NCBI GenBank assembly: GCA_016870215.1
Contig: VGCD01000007.1
Location: 1 to 64,000 of the forward strand
Direction of reading: 5' to 3'
Origin: Actinomycetota bacterium
GTDB lineage: Bacteria; Actinomycetota; Acidimicrobiia; Acidimicrobiales; Ilumatobacteraceae
Length of the DNA stretch: 64,000 bases
Shown: positions 1,919 to 59,289 of the stretch, piece after piece
Numbering within the stretch: position 1 is the stretch's first letter
Layout of the letters: each line of letters begins with the position of its first letter
Notes under the pieces: model-generated
What the model saw: the letters and a program-made list of their open reading frames with translations, nothing else
What the model was told of the DNA's origin: nothing
Databases searched by the model: none
Position numbers and translations under genes: made by a program

Positions 1919-4183
1919 ATGGCGTCGTTCGAGAAGTTTCAAGGGGTCATTGGAAAGACGGTTGCTGAATCGACGCCACATTGGCCAGAGGTGAAGCACC
2001 CACGTGACGGCGCCCCGAACGTCATCATCATCCTCATCGACGATCTTGGCTTTGCTCACTTCAATTGTTTTGGTTCCACGCTCGACACGCCGAACATCGA
2101 CCGCCTTGCTTCAGGTGGGCTTCGGTACACGAACTACCACGTAACTCCGTTGTGTAGCCCGACGAGAGCCGCGCTTCTCACCGGTCGTAACGCGCATGAA
2201 GTCGGTATGCGATCAATTTCGAATTTCAACACTGGGTTCACGAATATGCGCGGCTGTGTCTCGCATCATGCGGCGACCGTTGCTGAGGTGTTGCGCGAAG
2301 AGGGTTACGCGACGTTTGCACTTGGTAAGTGGCACCTCACGCAAATGGAGAACGCCTCTGCTGCAGGTCCGTTTGACCAGTGGCCGCTTGGTCGCGGATT
2401 CGATCGGTTTTACGGCTTCCTTGACGGCGAGACAGACCAGTTCCATCCAGAGCTTGTCTATGACAATCACCATGTACCGCTTCCAAAAACGGTGGAGGAG
2501 GGCTATCACCTCAGCGAGGATCTTGTCGACAAGGGCCTGCACTTCATTCGTGACCTGAAGTCAATACGACCAGACAAACCGTTCTTCACGTACTTGGCGT
2601 TCGGTGCCACACACGCGCCGCACCAGGCACCGAAGTCGTACCTCGACAAGCATCGCGGGCGCTACGACGCAGGTTGGGATGCAGCGCGTGATGAATGGTT
2701 CACCCGTCAACATGAGATGGGCATCATTCCGCCCTCCACGAAGCTTGCACCGCGTAACCCTGGTGTCGAACCATGGGACTCACTTCCTGACAATCAACGA
2801 CGTCTGGCGCTGCGACTGCAAGAAGCTTTTGCAGCCTTTCTCGAGCACACCGATGCGCAGATTGGGCGATTGGTTGCAGAGCTCGAACGATTGGGTGAGC
2901 TCGACAACACTCTCATTTTCGTGCAGTCCGATAACGGTGCAAGCCAAGAAGGCGGCCCGTTCGGAGTCATGCATGAGATGAAGTTCTTCAACATGATCAT
3001 CGAGTCACCCGATGAAGCTGTGTTGCGCATCGACGACATTGGCGGCCCGCATAGCCATGCCAACTATCCGTGGGGTTGGGCACAGGCAGGCAACACGCCG
3101 TTCAAGTGGTACAAGCAGAACACTCATGAAGGCGGCGTGCATGTGCCACTCGTGGTGCATTGGCCGCGAGGAATCAGTGACACAGGAAGCTTGCGCCATC
3201 AGTTCCATGTGGTGAATGACATTGTGCCGACCATCTACGACGTTGTCGGTGTGACACCGCCAGATGTGCACAAGGGTTACGCACAGATGCCGGTGTCAGG
3301 AACATCACTCGCATACAGCTTCAACGACGAGTCGATAGAAAGTCGAAAGACTGTTCAGTACTTCGAAAATATGGGCCACCGTGCCATTTACTCAGACGGG
3401 TGGAAAGCGGTAACGCGCCATCAGCCCGGAGTGGCATACGACGATGACGAATGGGAGTTGTACGACCTTCGAAACGACCGCTCAGAGTGCGACAACTTGG
3501 CAGAGGCTATGCCCGACAAAGTTGCTGAGATGGTGGCGCTGTGGTGGGTCGAGGCCGAGAAGTACAACGTGTTGCCACTCGATGATCGTGGTGTGACGTT
3601 GTTTGGTGCGCGCCTTGGTCCGCACGGTGCACACCGCCCCGATCGCCGTTACAGCTACTTTCCGCCGATCACACGTATTCCCACCGCTGCAAGTGCGTCA
3701 ATCGGAGGCCGGTCGTGGGATTTGCGAGCACACATCACGCGAGATTCAAGTGACAACGGTGTGTTGTACGCAACCGGAACTGAGAATTCTGGGCTCAGCG
3801 TGTTCATTCAAGATGACAAGTTGGTGTTCGATTACAACTACTTCGGGGAGCACTTCATCGCAGAGTCAGACTCGCCGGTGCCCGTGGGAACATCCGTGGT
3901 CGGGGTGAAATTCCGGCGTGCAAAGAAAGATGCTGATGTCGAATTGCTGGTCAACGAGCAGGTTGTCGGCACCATGCACCTTCCGAAGTTCATGCGCATG
4001 ATGTCGAGTGTTGGCGCGAGTGTCGGTTATGACGATGGTTCACCTGTGAGTGAGCGTTACTCGAACGAATTCCACTTCTCGGGGCACATCGAACGGGTCG
4101 ACATCGATGTGATTCCATCAGACAGGGAAGCTGAGCAGGCTGTCAATGACGCTGTGGGACGCAGCATTCAGGCTCGCCAGTAA
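1919..4183 (+). CDS. Formylglycine-dependent sulfatase (arylsulfatase family)
   Basis: A 754-residue type I sulfatase. Metal-binding Asp41-Asp42 lie in the first strand (ILIDDLG), and the modification motif C79-S-P-T-R83 would yield the catalytic formylglycine. GKWHL and a VQSDNG segment match the family's other active-site loops. The last 170 residues form a beta-rich extension after the sulfatase fold. There is no signal peptide, so it may act on intracellular sulfate esters. The ATG at 1919 is preferred over the GTG at 1904 because GGAGGGA lies 6-7 nt before it. The 3' end overlaps the convergent gene by 41 bases. Confidence 0.92.
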   Translation: MASFEKFQGVIGKTVAESTPHWPEVKHPRDGAPNVIIILIDDLGFAHFNCFGSTLDTPNIDRLASGGLRYTNYHVTPLCSPTRAALLTGRNAHEVGMRSISNFNTGFTNMRGCVSHHAATVAEVLREEGYATFALGKWHLTQMENASAAGPFDQWPLGRGFDRFYGFLDGETDQFHPELVYDNHHVPLPKTVEEGYHLSEDLVDKGLHFIRDLKSIRPDKPFFTYLAFGATHAPHQAPKSYLDKHRGRYDAGWDAARDEWFTRQHEMGIIPPSTKLAPRNPGVEPWDSLPDNQRRLALRLQEAFAAFLEHTDAQIGRLVAELERLGELDNTLIFVQSDNGASQEGGPFGVMHEMKFFNMIIESPDEAVLRIDDIGGPHSHANYPWGWAQAGNTPFKWYKQNTHEGGVHVPLVVHWPRGISDTGSLRHQFHVVNDIVPTIYDVVGVTPPDVHKGYAQMPVSGTSLAYSFNDESIESRKTVQYFENMGHRAIYSDGWKAVTRHQPGVAYDDDEWELYDLRNDRSECDNLAEAMPDKVAEMVALWWVEAEKYNVLPLDDRGVTLFGARLGPHGAHRPDRRYSYFPPITRIPTAASASIGGRSWDLRAHITRDSSDNGVLYATGTENSGLSVFIQDDKLVFDYNYFGEHFIAESDSPVPVGTSVVGVKFRRAKKDADVELLVNEQVVGTMHLPKFMRMMSSVGASVGYDDGSPVSERYSNEFHFSGHIERVDIDVIPSDREAEQAVNDAVGRSIQARQ

Positions 4184-6728: not shown

Positions 6729-7880
6729 ATGAGCGGCTCCGTCGTCATTGTCGGGGCCGGTTTTTCTGGCGCGGTCGTCGCGCGGCAACTTGCTGAAGCC
6801 GGAATCTCCTCCACGGTGTTTGACGGTCGCTCTCATGTGGCCGGAAACGCCCATACCGAGCGTCATTCAAATGGCGTGATGGTGCATGCCTATGGTCCCC
6901 ACATCTTCCACACCCAATGGGATCACGTGTGGCAGTACATCACTCGTTTCGGCGAGATGAAGCCCTACAACCACCGCGTGAAGGCGACAAGCGCAGGTCG
7001 CGTGTACTCGCTACCTGTGAACTTGTTGACAATCAACCAGTTCTTCGGCACCACGCTGTCTCCGAAGGAAGCAGAAGCATTCATCACCGAGCGAGCAGAC
7101 CGCACCATTGATGTGCCGGTGAGCTTCGAAGATCAGGCGCTGAAATTTGTGGGTCGAGAGTTGTACGAAGCGTTCTTCAAGGGATACACACAGAAGCAGT
7201 GGGGCGTGTCGCCGACGGAACTTCCCGCATCGATCTTGGCGCGACTTCCAGTGCGTTTCAACTATGAAGATTCCTATTTCAATCATCCGTATCAGGCCAT
7301 TCCGGCACATGGATACACGGCAATTGTCGAAGCAATTCTCGATCACCCATTGATCACGGTGTCGTTGTCAACCGTCAAGAACCCGACTGAATTGCAAGGT
7401 GCCGACCACGTCTTCTGGTCAGGACCAATCGATGAGTGGTTCGGTGGAGCTCACGGAGCACTCGGATACCGCACACTTGATTTCGAACAGAGCACGGTGA
7501 AGGGCGACTTTCAAGGCTGCCCTGTCATGAACTATTGCGATGTCGATGTGCCTTTTACGCGTATCACTGAGCACAAGCATTTCGCACCATGGGAGCAACA
7601 CGAAGGATCAGTCATCTTTCATGAATTCAGTCGATTATGTGAGAAGGGCGATATTCCGTATTACCCGATTCGCTTGGTGAAGGAAAAGGAGCAACTACTG
7701 CGGTATGTCGACGCTGCGCGCGCTCTTGATGGTGTCACCTTCCTCGGACGCCTCGGCACCTATCGTTACCTTGATATGGATGTGACCATCAAGGAAGCCC
7801 TCGATGTGGCCAGCACCTATCTCGCCTCTGTGAAGAGCGGCGATGCGATGCCGGCATTCGTCGTGGACCCTCTCGGGTGA
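6729..7880 (+). CDS. glf: UDP-galactopyranose mutase
   Basis: A 383-residue flavoprotein with the N-terminal dinucleotide motif GAGFSGAV, the GPHIFHT segment and the conserved FFKGYTQKQWG stretch of UDP-galactopyranose mutases. It converts UDP-Galp to UDP-Galf, the donor for galactofuranose polymers. The ATG follows a GGGGAG ribosome-like site. A possible nine-codon open frame (GTG at 6703, preceded by TAGTGT) ends in a TGA that overlaps this ATG. The next gene starts within its stop codon (GTGA), so the two are co-translated. Confidence 0.95.
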   Translation: MSGSVVIVGAGFSGAVVARQLAEAGISSTVFDGRSHVAGNAHTERHSNGVMVHAYGPHIFHTQWDHVWQYITRFGEMKPYNHRVKATSAGRVYSLPVNLLTINQFFGTTLSPKEAEAFITERADRTIDVPVSFEDQALKFVGRELYEAFFKGYTQKQWGVSPTELPASILARLPVRFNYEDSYFNHPYQAIPAHGYTAIVEAILDHPLITVSLSTVKNPTELQGADHVFWSGPIDEWFGGAHGALGYRTLDFEQSTVKGDFQGCPVMNYCDVDVPFTRITEHKHFAPWEQHEGSVIFHEFSRLCEKGDIPYYPIRLVKEKEQLLRYVDAARALDGVTFLGRLGTYRYLDMDVTIKEALDVASTYLASVKSGDAMPAFVVDPLG

Positions 7881-9655
7881 GCTCTGTGACCGTCAACGTT
7901 CTCGCCCACATCACAGTTCCCGCAGCCGATTTTCCAGAGCCGCTGCTGTACGTCCGGTCAGAGTCGATCACTCGTGATGGGGAAGCCCTGTCACTGTCTG
8001 CAGGTCAGCGCGCAACTTTTGACACGGCATTTGGGTTGTTTCCCGCAGGGCGCTGGCGTCGTTTGACCACGCTTTCAAATGTATCGGCTCGCGTTCATGT
8101 CGAAGGGCGAGCGCGCGTCAATCTGGTCGCCGTCTCTGGTGAGCGAGAAGACATCATCGATTCAGTCGAGGTCGACGGTGGCACGGCAATCGTGTCGCTG
8201 CCGAATCTTGATACGTCGTCGGTTGGCACGTTGTTTGTCACCGTCACAGCAATCGATGGTCGAGTTCTTGTACGCGGGGGAGAGTGGACCACGACCATGG
8301 CCCCCACGCGCAATGTCACTCTCGGAGTAGCAATCACAACGTTCAATCGACAGGAGTACGTGCTGAAGACCATCAGTCGTCTTGTTGAGTTGGAACGAAA
8401 CGTCGCCGAGTTGAGCGGTCGCTTGAAGGTGGTGGTCGTCGACAACGCACAGAATCTCAAGCCAGAGTTGGCTTCGGATGCGCCAGTGACGGTCATTCCA
8501 AACCCGAATCTTGGCGGTGCAGGTGGGTTTGCACGCGGAATCATGACGCTTCGCGACGGTGGCTGGGCAAGCCACATCGTTGTCATGGATGATGACATTC
8601 TCCTCGAGCCAGAGTCGGTAGTTCGGACTGTTTCGTTATTGTCGTATGCACGTTCGGCCGACTTGTGTGTGCACGGGGCGATGATGAGCGAAGAACAGCC
8701 GTGGATGCAGTTCGAAGCCGGAGCGAACTATGAGTTTCGCTCGGTGTATCCGTTGCGTGCGGTGGGTCGTCTCGACGACATGCGCGACCGCGCTGAGGTC
8801 ATCCCTGATGTGGCCGAGATCCCGTTCGATTACACGGCATGGTGGTTCACGGTGTTTCCCGTGCATCTAGCAAAAGAAAATCCGTTGCCGGTGTTCGTTC
8901 GCGGTGATGACGTGGCCTATGGCCTGATGCACACCGGAAAACACACCGTGACACTTCCGGGTGTAGTGGTGTGGCACGCAGATTTTGCGTTGAAGAACAA
9001 TCCGTCGTCGTTGTACTACGAGGTTCGTAATTTCGCACTCATCGACACGCTGGTGTTTGACGAACACAAGTGGTGGCATCTTGCGTGGCGATACCTCGGG
9101 TTCGGATTCCGCAATTTGTACTCACATCGTTATGCAAGTTGCGAATACATGGTGCGCGGCATGGAGCAATTCTTGGCAGGCCCGAAAGAATGGATGAAAA
9201 TCGATCATGCTGCATTGCATGACGATCTCCGTCGCGTGGCTGAAGAGAAGGCAATTCCGTTGACCGACGACCAACTTGCTCTTGGCTTTTCACCTCCTCG
9301 TCCGAAGATCATTCGCCTAGCTGGGTTTTTGCTGGCTGCACCGACCCTTGGGGGAAGCCTCATCCCGTCGTTCTTCCGCGCGCGACGCATGGGAGTGGCT
9401 CAAATTGATGTCCGAGCCGTGGGTCTGGCTATTCGCCACGATGACATTTTGTATCGACACCCGCGTCTGCCCGAGGGCTACATCTGCAGTCGTGACCGCG
9501 AGCGATTCAAACACTTACAAAAGCGTGTGTTCCGCTCAGCATGGGTGCTGATGCGTACATACCGACGTTTGAAGAAGGACTTCCGCGCGATGTACCCCCA
9601 GCTCGTCAGCGACGGGGCATGGCGGGAGCGCTTTGGCGCGACGCCAGGGGTGTAG
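7877..9655 (+). CDS. Galactofuranosyltransferase, GlfT2-like (GT2)
   Basis: A 592-residue glycosyltransferase resembling mycobacterial GlfT2: an N-terminal beta-rich domain (about 1-150), a GT-A domain starting at TLGVAITTFNR, the metal-binding MDDDI motif at about residue 237, the VFVRGDDVAYG acceptor loop, and a basic helical C-terminus. It should transfer Galf from UDP-Galf to a growing galactan. Start GTG 7877 overlaps the glf stop by 4 bases, and the supply of donor by glf supports the assignment. The last eleven codons, including the stop, are the first copy of a 33-bp tandem repeat, so the C-terminus may vary between strains. Confidence 0.88.
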   Translation: MSSVTVNVLAHITVPAADFPEPLLYVRSESITRDGEALSLSAGQRATFDTAFGLFPAGRWRRLTTLSNVSARVHVEGRARVNLVAVSGEREDIIDSVEVDGGTAIVSLPNLDTSSVGTLFVTVTAIDGRVLVRGGEWTTTMAPTRNVTLGVAITTFNRQEYVLKTISRLVELERNVAELSGRLKVVVVDNAQNLKPELASDAPVTVIPNPNLGGAGGFARGIMTLRDGGWASHIVVMDDDILLEPESVVRTVSLLSYARSADLCVHGAMMSEEQPWMQFEAGANYEFRSVYPLRAVGRLDDMRDRAEVIPDVAEIPFDYTAWWFTVFPVHLAKENPLPVFVRGDDVAYGLMHTGKHTVTLPGVVVWHADFALKNNPSSLYYEVRNFALIDTLVFDEHKWWHLAWRYLGFGFRNLYSHRYASCEYMVRGMEQFLAGPKEWMKIDHAALHDDLRRVAEEKAIPLTDDQLALGFSPPRPKIIRLAGFLLAAPTLGGSLIPSFFRARRMGVAQIDVRAVGLAIRHDDILYRHPRLPEGYICSRDRERFKHLQKRVFRSAWVLMRTYRRLKKDFRAMYPQLVSDGAWRERFGATPGV

Positions 9656-9738
9656 CGGGAGCGCTTTGGCGCGACGCCAGGGGTGTAGCGGGAGCGCTTT
9701 GGCGCGACGCCAGGGGTGTAGCGGGAGCGCTTTGGCGC
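9622..9738. repeat. 33-bp tandem repeat, 3.5 copies, between convergent genes
   Basis: Three identical 33-bp units (9622-9654, 9655-9687, 9688-9720) and an 18-bp partial copy (9721-9738). Each unit carries TGGCG-CGA-CGCCA, which can fold into a 5-bp stem. The first copy is the coding end of the galactofuranosyltransferase. Because 33 is divisible by three, each later copy repeats the same C-terminal residues and TAG stop. The partial copy ends at the stop codon of the convergent SpoIID gene. No further copies were noticed in the window. Confidence 0.95.
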
Positions 9739-12108
9739 TTAGGTACGAGCAGCGGTGGCGGTGAGCACTGCCCACGTCGTGCCATCAACCACTCCGGTGA
9801 CTGGCAACTGAGCACGCTGTTGAAAGGTACGCACAAGGGTGGCAGTTGCCTTGGAGTACGAATTGGTTGATGCGACCTTCCGTTTCAACACTTTTGCCAA
9901 AGCCTGGTGAATGGTGCGCACAGATGGATGAACCGATCCTGTTGACAAGGTCGTGGTCTTCGGGTCGGTTGCCAGTCCGAGCAACTCCCACGTCGCCCGA
10001 TCGACTTGGCCTGTCACAGTCCACGAACGTCCGGTCTGTAGCGCTCTGACGGCGCGAATGGTCGCCGCACCATAGACGCCGTCGATGCGGAGCGCTTTCT
10101 TCTTCTTGAGGCCAAGCGTGGCGTTCAGTGAGCGCTGCAGAGACTTCACCATTGTTCCGGCATGACCTTTAGCAAGTGGCAGTCCCGGAAGCAAAGCTGC
10201 GGGTGCTGCAGTGGTGGGAAGTAACCCTTGCTGGCGTAATGAGTCGAGTTGGGTTCGCAACCACCAGACGTATTCGGTTCTGCCAGTTGTCGTGAGGTGG
10301 ACTTTCGACGAATCAAACCAGCGAGTCTTGCTTGCATCGGCACTTGCTGCATTCCAGTCGAGAACTGTCACGTTTGAGTTAGCCGCAGCAACTGCGGTGA
10401 GAACGTCGTTGCTTCGTCGATATGACCTGTTGGTGGAGCGAGTTGACATGTTGACAAACACAATCCTCGGTACACCCTTTGCAACAAGCGCGGACAATAG
10501 CTGTTGAACTTCGGTGTCGTACGTGGCTGGGTCGTCGTTGTATCCAAGCGCGATAAGGGCAATCGCCGGGGTCTCAGATGCATTGACAACTGTGACTCCG
10601 TCAGTGCAGGTGGTGCCGATAATGCCCCGACCCGTGCAAGCCTGGAAGTTCACATTGGGGTACGCGATCGTGATGAGATTGGCGAATTCGGCGGCAATGC
10701 TGAGGCCGGTGGAGTCACTCACGAACAAGATGGATCCGACGATTGGGTCAGTTGGTTCCGCTCCGTACACCGCAGTCGTGTCGAACCACGGCGAATTCAA
10801 GTCCCAGTCACTGTCGAATTGACCAGCGGTGCGCGTGACAACTCCGGCAGTGCCGGTGATGGTGACCTTTGTTGCGTACCCTCCGAAATCACCACCTGCG
10901 CCGTCGTGGTCCGTGGCAATCGCAGTGAAAATTCCGATTGCTGGGTATTTCGCCTGCAACTTCGCTGCCGACAGTGAGCGACTCCAGTCCTTCAGCGTGG
11001 CGTTGGCGGCGATGTCGCCATCGTCGACGCGTGCTGCTATCGGACTTCCCGCAGTACGTCCGCCATTTGATGACGTGTATTCACTGCGAAAAACGGCACC
11101 TTGAGCGGTGCGAAGTATGACGCCGGCCGTCTCGGCAACTGCAAGGTTTGTGTTGTTCTCTTCGATGACTTTCGTGGTGCCGCCAATGTCTCGTAATGCA
11201 GCGCCGCCATACACCTGGCAACTCATCGAGTCGCAAGTCTTTGCGTAGCTGTAGCGGCTCTCTGACAAGCCATAGCTTCGGGCCGCGACTGCTTGCGCTC
11301 GCAGAGCGTTCATGCCCGCCCGATTAGCGGTATCGCCCCAACTTGCTGACATCTCGCGAGGCACGACACCGCGCACATAGCTGTCAATGTCGACTGCATT
11401 GACGGTGCGATTCGACTTCGCAGTGTCGTTTACCGCGCGAATGACCCCTCGGTAGTAACGCACTCGACCCTTCGGATACGAAGTCGACGAAGGTTCACAC
11501 ACTCCGAGTAAGTCGATGGGTGATACTGCTGTCGGTGCGGCAGAATTCGCTGCTCGGAATGTGATGGGGCCGGCAATGTCATTGCCAATGAGTGTGAACC
11601 CACTTGGTTCACCGCTCGCTGATGGACACGTGGCAGTTGTGGAACCCCAGATGTCGTAGATGTTGTCGCCAACCTCGCGAGCAAGGAGCGATGCGTAACT
11701 CTTTGCCGCTGGGTCGGCTTCCCACTGAGCCGTGGAGTTGTCGGACTGAACCGCGGTCTGGCTGTTGTCGAGAGTTTGCAGGCGAACTGTCATGAGGTTC
11801 GAAGGCAAGAGAACTTTGTCTGCATCCGCGATTGTCGACGTCGTGTTGCCAGTGCCGCCGTAATAGAAGTCGAGAATCTCCTGCCAGGTCTTGTTGTAGA
11901 TGCTTGCCCAGCCGTAGGCCCCGTACTGACTCATGCCGCGACCATGACCAAAACCGTGGCCACGAATGATGATGGCGAGTGGCGGAAGAGTCGCTGCTCG
12001 AGTGAAGTCCGGCGTAATTGAAAAGGTGGCGGACACAGCGGCAACCATGAGCATCGCTATGTGTCGCACAATGCGACGTGTACCGGCAGAGCGGGGGGGT
12101 CGCCTCAC
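9739..12108 (-). CDS. Exported SpoIID/LytB-SGNH-peptidoglycan-binding protein
   Basis: A 789-residue secreted protein. A signal peptide (basic start, then AMLMVAAVSATFS) precedes a SpoIID/LytB domain (about residues 45-440; GHGFGHGRGMSQYGA near 50-63). A region at about 458-620 resembles an SGNH hydrolase (SDSTG, GYND, VHLTTTGR), and two PG_binding_1 repeats follow at about 648-710 and 725-787. SpoIID is a lytic transglycosylase on denuded glycan in spore formers; here a wall-remodelling role is inferred. GTG 12108 is chosen because it follows the upstream gene's stop by 10 nt; longer starts would overlap that gene. Confidence 0.85.
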   Translation of the reverse strand: MRRPPRSAGTRRIVRHIAMLMVAAVSATFSITPDFTRAATLPPLAIIIRGHGFGHGRGMSQYGAYGWASIYNKTWQEILDFYYGGTGNTTSTIADADKVLLPSNLMTVRLQTLDNSQTAVQSDNSTAQWEADPAAKSYASLLAREVGDNIYDIWGSTTATCPSASGEPSGFTLIGNDIAGPITFRAANSAAPTAVSPIDLLGVCEPSSTSYPKGRVRYYRGVIRAVNDTAKSNRTVNAVDIDSYVRGVVPREMSASWGDTANRAGMNALRAQAVAARSYGLSESRYSYAKTCDSMSCQVYGGAALRDIGGTTKVIEENNTNLAVAETAGVILRTAQGAVFRSEYTSSNGGRTAGSPIAARVDDGDIAANATLKDWSRSLSAAKLQAKYPAIGIFTAIATDHDGAGGDFGGYATKVTITGTAGVVTRTAGQFDSDWDLNSPWFDTTAVYGAEPTDPIVGSILFVSDSTGLSIAAEFANLITIAYPNVNFQACTGRGIIGTTCTDGVTVVNASETPAIALIALGYNDDPATYDTEVQQLLSALVAKGVPRIVFVNMSTRSTNRSYRRSNDVLTAVAAANSNVTVLDWNAASADASKTRWFDSSKVHLTTTGRTEYVWWLRTQLDSLRQQGLLPTTAAPAALLPGLPLAKGHAGTMVKSLQRSLNATLGLKKKKALRIDGVYGAATIRAVRALQTGRSWTVTGQVDRATWELLGLATDPKTTTLSTGSVHPSVRTIHQALAKVLKRKVASTNSYSKATATLVRTFQQRAQLPVTGVVDGTTWAVLTATAART

Positions 12109-12118
12109 TTCGACAACG

Positions 12119-13009
12119 CTAGGGGGTTTCAGCCACCTTAGGGCGGCGATCGATGACATCGCGTTCCTGAATGGCAACCCCGACAAGCACCAGCACCATT
12201 CCAAGCAAGTCAGTTCGGGTCGGAGTCTGGTCGAGAAATACGAACCCGAACACGGCCGCGGTCACTGGAAGAAGTGACAACATCACGGAAAAACGACGTA
12301 TCGGAATTCGTCGCATCACTGCCTGATCGATGCCGTAACCAATTGCACTTGACGACGCACCAACGAGCACACATGCTGCGAGCAGCCAGGGAGTGGTGAG
12401 GACAGTGCCCGCATCACCCACTCCGAACGGTGCTATCACGAGTGCACCGAACACTAAGCCCACGCCGAGTCCGTTCACTCCACGATCTGTCTGTGCGACG
12501 CGTGATCCGAGAACGATATATCCAGCCCACATCGCTGAGGCAATGAGTAGAAAGAACAGGCCCAGGGGTTCGTCGGCCAATTCCACGCCGCCCAGAACAA
12601 CAACGCCACCTGCAGCCAGTACGAGTGCTGCAAAATTGCGTGCGGTCTTCGTTCGCAATGCAGCAACTGCGATTGGTCCGATGAATTCGATTGTGACACT
12701 CTTGCCAAGTGGCAGTCGGTCAATTGCTAAATAGAACGTCAAGTTCATGAGCGCAGTGGCAATTCCGAAACTTGCAGCTGCATAGACGTCGTGTTTGGTC
12801 CATGGTGAGTGATTGCTTCGCAGCGAGAACAGCATCAGCAGCCCCGCAGCAGATATCACTCGGAACAACGCAATGGTCGGCGGTGATGCATCGTCGAAGA
12901 GTCGAACGGCAACAACGGCGCCCGTGTACTGCGCAGCTGCAGACAGCAGGAAGAAGATCTCGGCAGGCGCAGATTCGATGAATCGGGCCGACCGGGTGTC
13001 GGTGGCCAA
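12119..13009 (-). CDS. EamA/RhtA-type drug/metabolite exporter
   Basis: An integral membrane protein of about 296 residues with ten predicted hydrophobic segments arranged as two EamA repeats. Conserved pieces include GAVVAVRLF, NLTFYLAIDRLPLG and a C-terminal LLPVTAAVFGFVFLDQ, as in RhtA threonine/homoserine exporters. The substrate is unknown. The start is uncertain: TTG at 13009 begins 2 nt after the aldolase stop, whereas the ATG at 13075 would overlap that gene by 64 bases. Neither has a ribosome site. It is probably cotranscribed with the aldolase gene upstream. Confidence 0.85.
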   Translation of the reverse strand: MATDTRSARFIESAPAEIFFLLSAAAQYTGAVVAVRLFDDASPPTIALFRVISAAGLLMLFSLRSNHSPWTKHDVYAAASFGIATALMNLTFYLAIDRLPLGKSVTIEFIGPIAVAALRTKTARNFAALVLAAGGVVVLGGVELADEPLGLFFLLIASAMWAGYIVLGSRVAQTDRGVNGLGVGLVFGALVIAPFGVGDAGTVLTTPWLLAACVLVGASSSAIGYGIDQAVMRRIPIRRFSVMLSLLPVTAAVFGFVFLDQTPTRTDLLGMVLVLVGVAIQERDVIDRRPKVAETP

Positions 13010-58629: not shown

Positions 58630-59289
58630 TCAGAAGAGGGTGAGATCTGCCGGCTTGTTACCGCGAAGCACGTCGTAGTCCACTTCAACGCATGCGATGT
58701 CGCGAGATTCGGCGAGTGTGCGAGCTTGTGGCTTGATGCTTTGGGCAACGAAGATGCCGCGAACCAACCCCAGAGCGGGGTCGCGGCGCAAGTATTCGAG
58801 ATAGCGAGCCAACTGTTCGACGCCATCAATGTCGCCCCGGCGCTTCACTTCAATCGCGACGGTGTCGCCTTGTTCGTCGCGACAGAGCAAGTCAACAGGT
58901 CCGATTGCCGTTTGGTATTCCCGTCGTACGAGGCGCAGTCCACTTTCAATATGTTCCGGTAACGCAGCCAAGAGCTCTTGTAGATGAGCTTCGACACCGT
59001 CTTTCGACAAGCCAGGGTCCTCGCCAAGCTCATGTGCCGAATCGCTGAGTACTTCGCGAAGAAAGATCGTGAGGGTCTCACCCTTGGTGTTCGTCACTTC
59101 CCATCGATCACCGAATTCGGTGATTGTGTTGGGGGCGTTCATCCAATTGAGTGGTTTGTATGCACCACCGTCAGCGTGAATAGCAACGCAACCATCAGCC
59201 TTCACCATGATGAGACGGTTCGCCTCTGGCAATGTTGACTCGAGACGACCGGCGTAAGACACTGAACATCGAGCAATAACCAGCCTCAT
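58630..59289 (-). CDS. nucS: Mismatch-specific endonuclease NucS
   Basis: A 219-residue protein matching NucS/Endo[18 protein letters not shown] start, [24 protein letters not shown]-binding part, and nuclease domain [23 protein letters not shown] (D...ExK) followed by QLARYLEYL. The C-terminus ADLTLF resembles the beta-clamp-binding tail of mycobacterial NucS. It starts MutS/MutL-independent mismatch repair in actinobacteria and archaea. GGAGGA lies 7-8 nt before ATG 59289 and decides the start. Confidence 0.95.

Follow-up and report, generated by a model that had tools for sequence, protein, structure and literature searches.

Mycobacterial MIRUs were reportedly described by Supply et al in 1997 as intergenic elements, some of them in tandem, lying near the ends of neighboring genes. 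MIRUs are units of 40–100 bp that are scattered at 41 places in H37Rv (PMC2734929). The same source describes VNTR3239 (ETR-F) of M. tuberculosis, located at the rnc-fpg1 junction, which has a 37-bp repeat and a length of 279–358 bp, against 1–54 in relatives. The repeated region reaches from 40 bp past the rnc stop to the start codon of fpg1, its repeat pattern varies among isolates, and its length has been linked to expression (PMC2734929). REP and BIME elements are short palindromic extragenic repeats, for which roles in transcription termination and mRNA stabilization have been hypothesized (PMC3733652, PMC2817692). In E. coli, inverted repeats are enriched downstream of stop codons and at mRNA ends, and of the long ones around gene ends, 74% belong to intrinsic terminators (PMC6060812).

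Here, we analyzed a tandem array at the 3' end of a gene for a GlfT2-type galactofuranosyltransferase (glfT2), located in a 64,000-nt stretch of DNA (hereafter, the window) from a draft genome of 55 contigs and 2,007,417 bases. As in VNTR3239, lineage-specific tandem repeats fill a junction that is short in relatives; unlike VNTR3239, which begins after the stop codon, the glfT2 array includes the last codons and the stop itself (PMC2734929). VNTR3239 is the closest published case among those compared. MIRUs differ in occupying 41 places in H37Rv, whereas the glfT2 unit was found at one (PMC2734929), and REPs form high-copy families of one sequence, whereas the glfT2 unit is confined to a single locus. 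Unlike the gene-end inverted repeats of E. coli, the glfT2 array lacks a U-tract and consists of tandem copies (PMC6060812). No stop-spanning, locus-born hairpin array was recognized among the matches listed in open-licence PMC text.

The array at the glfT2-SpoIID junction

The glfT2 gene (7877–9655, forward strand, 592 aa) is an open reading frame with Pfam matches to GlfT2_N and GlfT2_domain3, and it ends with a TAG at 9653–9655. It overlaps by 4 nt with its upstream partner, the gene for UDP-galactopyranose mutase (6729–7880, forward strand, open reading frame and Pfam match). Facing it on the reverse strand is a convergent SpoIID gene with a peptidoglycan-binding PG_binding_1 domain (9739–12204, open reading frame and Pfam match), whose stop at 9739–9741 reads TTA on the forward strand, i.e. 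TAA on its own strand. Tandem Repeats Finder (TRF) placed the array at 9622–9738, with a period of 33 bp, 3.5 copies, 100% matches, no indels and a score of 234. This bears out the original prediction of an in-frame 33-bp repeat that carries the TAG stop and ends at the SpoIID stop, which the last base of the array directly adjoins. It was the sole array with a TRF score of at least 50 in the window and, with head-to-tail copies of a unit within 10–100 bp, it has the structure of a minisatellite.

Copy 1 (9622–9654, forward strand, as for all copies) holds the last codons of glfT2. Copy 2 (9655–9687), whose first base is the G of the TAG stop, and copy 3 (9688–9720) are untranslated, and partial copy 4 spans 9721–9738. 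The bases before the unit are TG for copy 1, giving a TGG (Trp) codon, versus TA for the later copies, giving TAG; the 33-bp units are otherwise identical. In-frame TAG codons hence recur at 9686–9688 and 9719–9721, and every full copy re-encodes RERFGATPGV followed by a stop, as had been claimed. Read in frame with the bases that follow it, the last half-copy gives CGG GAG CGC TTT GGC GCT TAG (RERFGA and a stop). This TAG, at 9740–9742 on the forward strand, overlaps the SpoIID stop and is presumed to be the ancestral stop of glfT2. A search for the sequence of 9600–9760 found no second place in the own assembly, which is 91.8% complete, and a DNA query with the full array against 200 genomes of the family matched the own genome only, in a search that is insensitive to an array of 1.6 copies.

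A relative of glfT2 was present in 36 of 61 genomes, and 30 loci, own genome included, were compared. Outside the close clade formed with two sister species (G009 and G030), both stops were readable in 26 loci, one locus (L006) not being readable. In all 26, glfT2 and SpoIID abut or overlap tail to tail, with gaps of −50 to +19 bp, and the gap is negative, i.e. an overlap, in 13. The two largest overlaps are those of L029 and L031, from other genera, the former relying on a weaker SpoIID match, and L021 has an ordinary junction with the same 4-nt overlap of the two stops. Translations inspected by eye showed that glfT2 ends 2–4 residues after a conserved R/K-F/C in 23 same-genus relatives outside the clade; copy 1 ends six residues after R-F, and the last half-copy would end two residues after it. 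Since the half-copy matches the relatives in this respect, it is best read as the original end of glfT2, and the units upstream of it as in-frame duplications in which a stop was acquired inside the unit.

Other stop-spanning arrays in the same genome

The own-genome sample comprised 858,129 bases (window included) of the 2.0-Mb genome. Genes were called with a codon-usage script rather than a published gene finder, and array-bearing genes were named from Pfam. In this sample, 11 TRF rows with a score of at least 50 were not wholly inside a predicted gene, and six of them span a stop codon. Besides glfT2, these are the ends of an RNase J gene (L092:4231-4354, G000:C18, 34 bp × 3.6 copies, 100% matches), where FtsK is next and the TAA stop lies inside the loop of a 7-bp hairpin; an ABC transporter gene convergent with MetH (L096:2220-2276, G000:C1, 28 bp × 2.0 copies); a PALP enzyme gene (L102:10541-10645, G000:C1, 22 bp × 4.8 copies), where the last copy holds TTAG at the stop of a convergent reverse-strand reading frame (10644–11261); a gene with no Pfam match (L099, 3896–3942, 17 bp × 2.8 copies); and a WhiB gene (L098:11235-11284, 18 bp × 2.8 copies). 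The reading frame facing the PALP gene presumably encodes a carbonic anhydrase. A further array of 50 bp × 4.6 copies (93% matches) was observed in another genome at L127:17361-17591 (G001:C1), outside predicted genes and about 110 bp past a predicted gene end.

A scan for direct repeats centered on stop codons (score of at least 14, the same 858 kb) returned 6 of 729 stops, 1 of 754 mid-gene points and 0 of 724 starts. With these small counts, Fisher tests gave p = 0.016 for stops versus starts and p = 0.057 for stops versus mid-gene points. The same scan returned 0/326 stops in G001, 0/160 in G021, 0/91 in G009 and 0/128 in G030, where gaps hide arrays. In G003 it returned 3/183; two of these rows report a single 15-bp duplication at a convergent junction, once from each side, and the third is a 12-bp period where a repetitive coding sequence ends. 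Short stop-spanning duplications arose independently elsewhere, with 13 bp in L010/L011 (compared with L016) and the 15 bp in G003, and these suggest that stop-spanning duplication would be a general process whose products grew longer in this clade. Enrichment of the arrays at convergent junctions was considered and dropped: two of the six lie at such junctions by the gene calls (p = 0.73, computed for this count), and three of six with the neighbor in L102 corrected by hand.

The six units measure 33, 34, 28, 22, 18 and 17 bp, and their common feature is that a stop codon is included. These lengths bear on the original prediction's suggestion that a unit that is a multiple of three is the point of the element. 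Because the sibling units are 34, 28, 22, 18 and 17 bp long, that suggestion is not supported, and the keeping of frame by the 33-bp unit appears incidental. The same holds for the proposal that suppression of the TAG adds RERFGATPGV modules and thereby tunes the enzyme. A unit of exactly 11 codons would suit such read-through, but sibling units of 34, 28, 22 and 17 bp do not keep the frame as a rule, and the added residues would lie beyond the GlfT2_domain3 match, which stops at residue 586 of 592 and leaves residues 587–592 (GATPGV) outside. We regard read-through modules as highly improbable.

Sequence likeness between the units bears on a dispersed origin, in which a mobile or REP/MIRU-like repeat family had inserted at the gene end. 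The units resemble such families in being palindromic, extragenic, tandem and close to stops, and the RNase J and PALP units have a short stretch in common (3 of 200 shuffles reach their score). However, in the other 14 of the 15 pairs among the six arrays the units are no closer than expected from shuffling (their scores are reached by 26 to 194 of 200 shuffles), and the window unit occupies one place only in the assembly, which is 91.8% complete. Moreover, the unit starts as the last codons of the gene itself, W-x-x-R-F, which are kept in relatives, and not as a foreign unit of the REP or MIRU kind. A dispersed family hence seems a most improbable source of the array.

The arrays in sister species and their proposed origin

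Only two genomes of the genus, the sisters G009 and G030, have enzymes with about 88% identity to the GlfT2 of the window. Against the 3.5 copies in the window genome, the G009 junction has about 1.6 copies of the 33-bp unit, with a different in-unit stop (CCG-TAG). In G030, an assembly gap of 250 N extends from inside copy 1 to inside the last copy, which makes copies uncountable; apart from the last four bases, no second copy is visible there, only the gap. A scan for stop-spanning repeats at glfT2 (29 of 30 loci readable) gave scores of at least 14 only in the window genome (84) and G009 (14), both with period 33, and at most 6 elsewhere. The predicted growth by duplication thus finds support in the different copy numbers of the window genome and G009, in the gap in G030 and in the lack of the array from the 26 readable distant relatives.

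Three of the other arrays had a similar distribution. At the RNase J locus (29 of 30 readable), only the window genome (90), G030 (21) and G009 (16) scored, all with period 34, and the remaining 26 readable loci reached at most 8. At the PALP locus (29 of 30 readable), only the window genome (61), G009 (19) and G030 (18) scored, all with period 22, the remaining 26 readable loci reaching at most 9. At the ABC locus (27 of 30 readable), the window genome (29) and G009 (14) scored, both with period 28, and the 24 readable loci outside the clade were at most 6. The low G030 scores at glfT2 and ABC come from loci that are gapped there, and at ABC parts of two copies flank the gap. Neither sister species has the L099 array, whose unit lacks a hairpin.

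Based on 178,779 bases of G030, N-runs number 16 in total, with four at the four compared arrays and 12 elsewhere (one of them cut by the end of a locus). Rough arithmetic puts the chance of gaps at all four arrays at the order of 1e-8, so the arrays in G030 are probably long or polymorphic and for that reason difficult to assemble. The length of the 250-N gap was dropped as an estimate of copy number; other gaps on that contig are 108–344 long.

These comparisons also bear on the possibility that the assembler misread a single unit, or another locus, as several copies. The genome is a draft, and by our reasoning short-read assemblers come close to their limit with perfect arrays of 117 and 124 bp, such that the true copy number may be higher than the assembled one. 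Against an artefact stand the diverged copies that G009 has, with the same period, at all four loci, the two visible copies or copy parts in G030 at three loci together with a gap at all four, and the base before the unit, which is not the same for copy 1 as for the later ones. We therefore consider an assembly artefact very improbable.

With some confidence, we favor reading the array as a minisatellite born at this locus and enlarged by replication slippage at the gene end. Ancestral glfT2 would have ended in WRERFGA, with its TAG overlapping the TAA of convergent SpoIID by 4 nt. The last codons would then have been duplicated in frame, placing a 33-bp copy upstream of this ancestral end. 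With an in-unit stop (TGG to TAG in the window species, CCG-TAG in G009), the protein would have been closed after copy 1, so that any further copies became untranslated spacer. Later slippage may have given 3.5 copies here and, judging from the assembly gap, perhaps more in G030. Because the array sits between two stops, changes in copy number would alter neither protein and would therefore be tolerated, which agrees with the earlier claim that slippage has no effect on the protein. The quasi-palindromic units could fold within and between copies, which would probably favor slippage, and they might also mark where the two transcripts have their 3' ends. The order of events, the promotion of slippage by hairpins and the neutrality are our inferences, and this history does not fully account for the sister lineages having two different stops inside the unit.

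Hairpins, transcript ends and implications

A hairpin with a 5-bp stem, TGGCG-CGA-CGCCA, lies at 9634–9646 and again at 9667–9679 and 9700–9712. The original prediction had placed one in each copy; the three full copies have it, while the last half-copy lacks the 3' arm. One interpretation is that such hairpins make the array a selected bidirectional 3'-end element, in which they stop or stabilize both convergent transcripts and extra copies improve the effect. A role as terminator or 3' protector would explain retention in three species, and the four loci with a unit hairpin keep the repeat or a gap in both sisters, whereas L099, without a unit hairpin, is free of an array in both. Folding of the whole glfT2 array is stronger than that of shuffles on both strands (z −4.1 and −3.5), the RNase J array folds well on both strands and the PALP array on one, although these scores are inflated because shuffling destroys repeats. 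The single RNase J unit, TGTCGGC-GTAA-GCCGACA, folds better than each of 200 shuffles. On neither strand, however, does the ABC array region outperform shuffles, and the glfT2 junction of G009 does not stand out (18 and 48 of 200 shuffles are as good). The single glfT2 unit is matched by 26 of 200 shuffles, making its hairpin unexceptional for its composition, and the PALP, ABC and L099 units are matched by 51, 29 and 166 of 200, respectively. The L098 array has no notable hairpin, and the hairpin at L099 lies upstream of the repeat, outside the unit.

Perfect inverted repeats are stronger at the six array stops than at the other 723 (p = 0.0008), and folding energy is lower (p = 0.006); the energy comparison is to some extent circular, since part of a second copy can fall within the fold window. 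The stems themselves gave mixed signals across species, after two pattern matches that do not belong to these hairpins were set aside. One compensated stem pair each was found in glfT2 (T-A to C-G in G009) and in ABC (C-G to G-C in G009 copy 2 and in G030). Against selection on the stems, pairs are broken in G009 (3/6 in ABC copy 1, 1/6 in ABC copy 2 and 1/7 in RNase J copy 1) and in G030 (1/6 in ABC). In G009, the last half-copy at glfT2 (L004, reverse complement, 3273–3288) is a perfect 16-bp palindrome, GCAGGAGCGCTCCTGC, with two substitutions relative to copy 1, which looks like quasi-palindrome correction or selection.

No U-tract, as expected of an intrinsic (Rho-independent) terminator, follows the glfT2 hairpin on either strand, the bases that come next being GGGGTGTAGC on the forward strand and AAGCGCTCCC on the reverse strand. 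Runs of at least five T within 60 nt of the stop occur at 27 of the 729 stops of the genome sample, and this scarcity counts in favor of a selected 3'-end element. Taken together, a role of the array as bidirectional terminator or mRNA protector is weakly suggested, and we regard a selected element of this kind as possible but doubtful.

Two wider explanations were tried and rejected. Hairpins with the stop in their loop are not a genome-wide architecture: across 1559 stops in six sampled genomes there was no peak at the stop, and long stems showed a weak rise about 15–25 nt past it. Inspection by eye did reveal a stop codon in a hairpin loop in other species of the genus, at RNase J ends (L144, L152, L146) and ABC ends (L198, L200). 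Loss of the hairpin nuclease SbcCD was considered as a clade-specific cause. SbcD exceeded the cut-off in none of the 32 genomes of the genus, three of which had weak partial matches, and in 8 of 14 controls; being under the cut-off in all 32, its loss therefore does not set the clade apart. NucS was present in 25 of the 32, including all three members of the clade, and a NucS domain is encoded in the window at 58636–58995 on the reverse strand.

A more far-reaching proposal is that in this clade of the genus UBA2093, hairpin-bearing gene ends repeatedly became stop-containing arrays that act as tunable, protein-invisible terminators, varying the number of 3'-end hairpins. We consider this unlikely as it stands. 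If it were true, termination and read-through into the neighboring gene would be varied without touching the protein, in a genome that rarely has T-runs after its stops. The minisatellite reading that we favor suggests a simpler rule that would apply to any genome: a tandem duplication spanning a stop codon is invisible to proteins, best of all where two convergent stops overlap, so gene ends could bear and grow minisatellites. The loci in the three sister species, which are at different stages, may thus offer a system for studying hairpin-promoted slippage and the effect of copy number on transcription ends.
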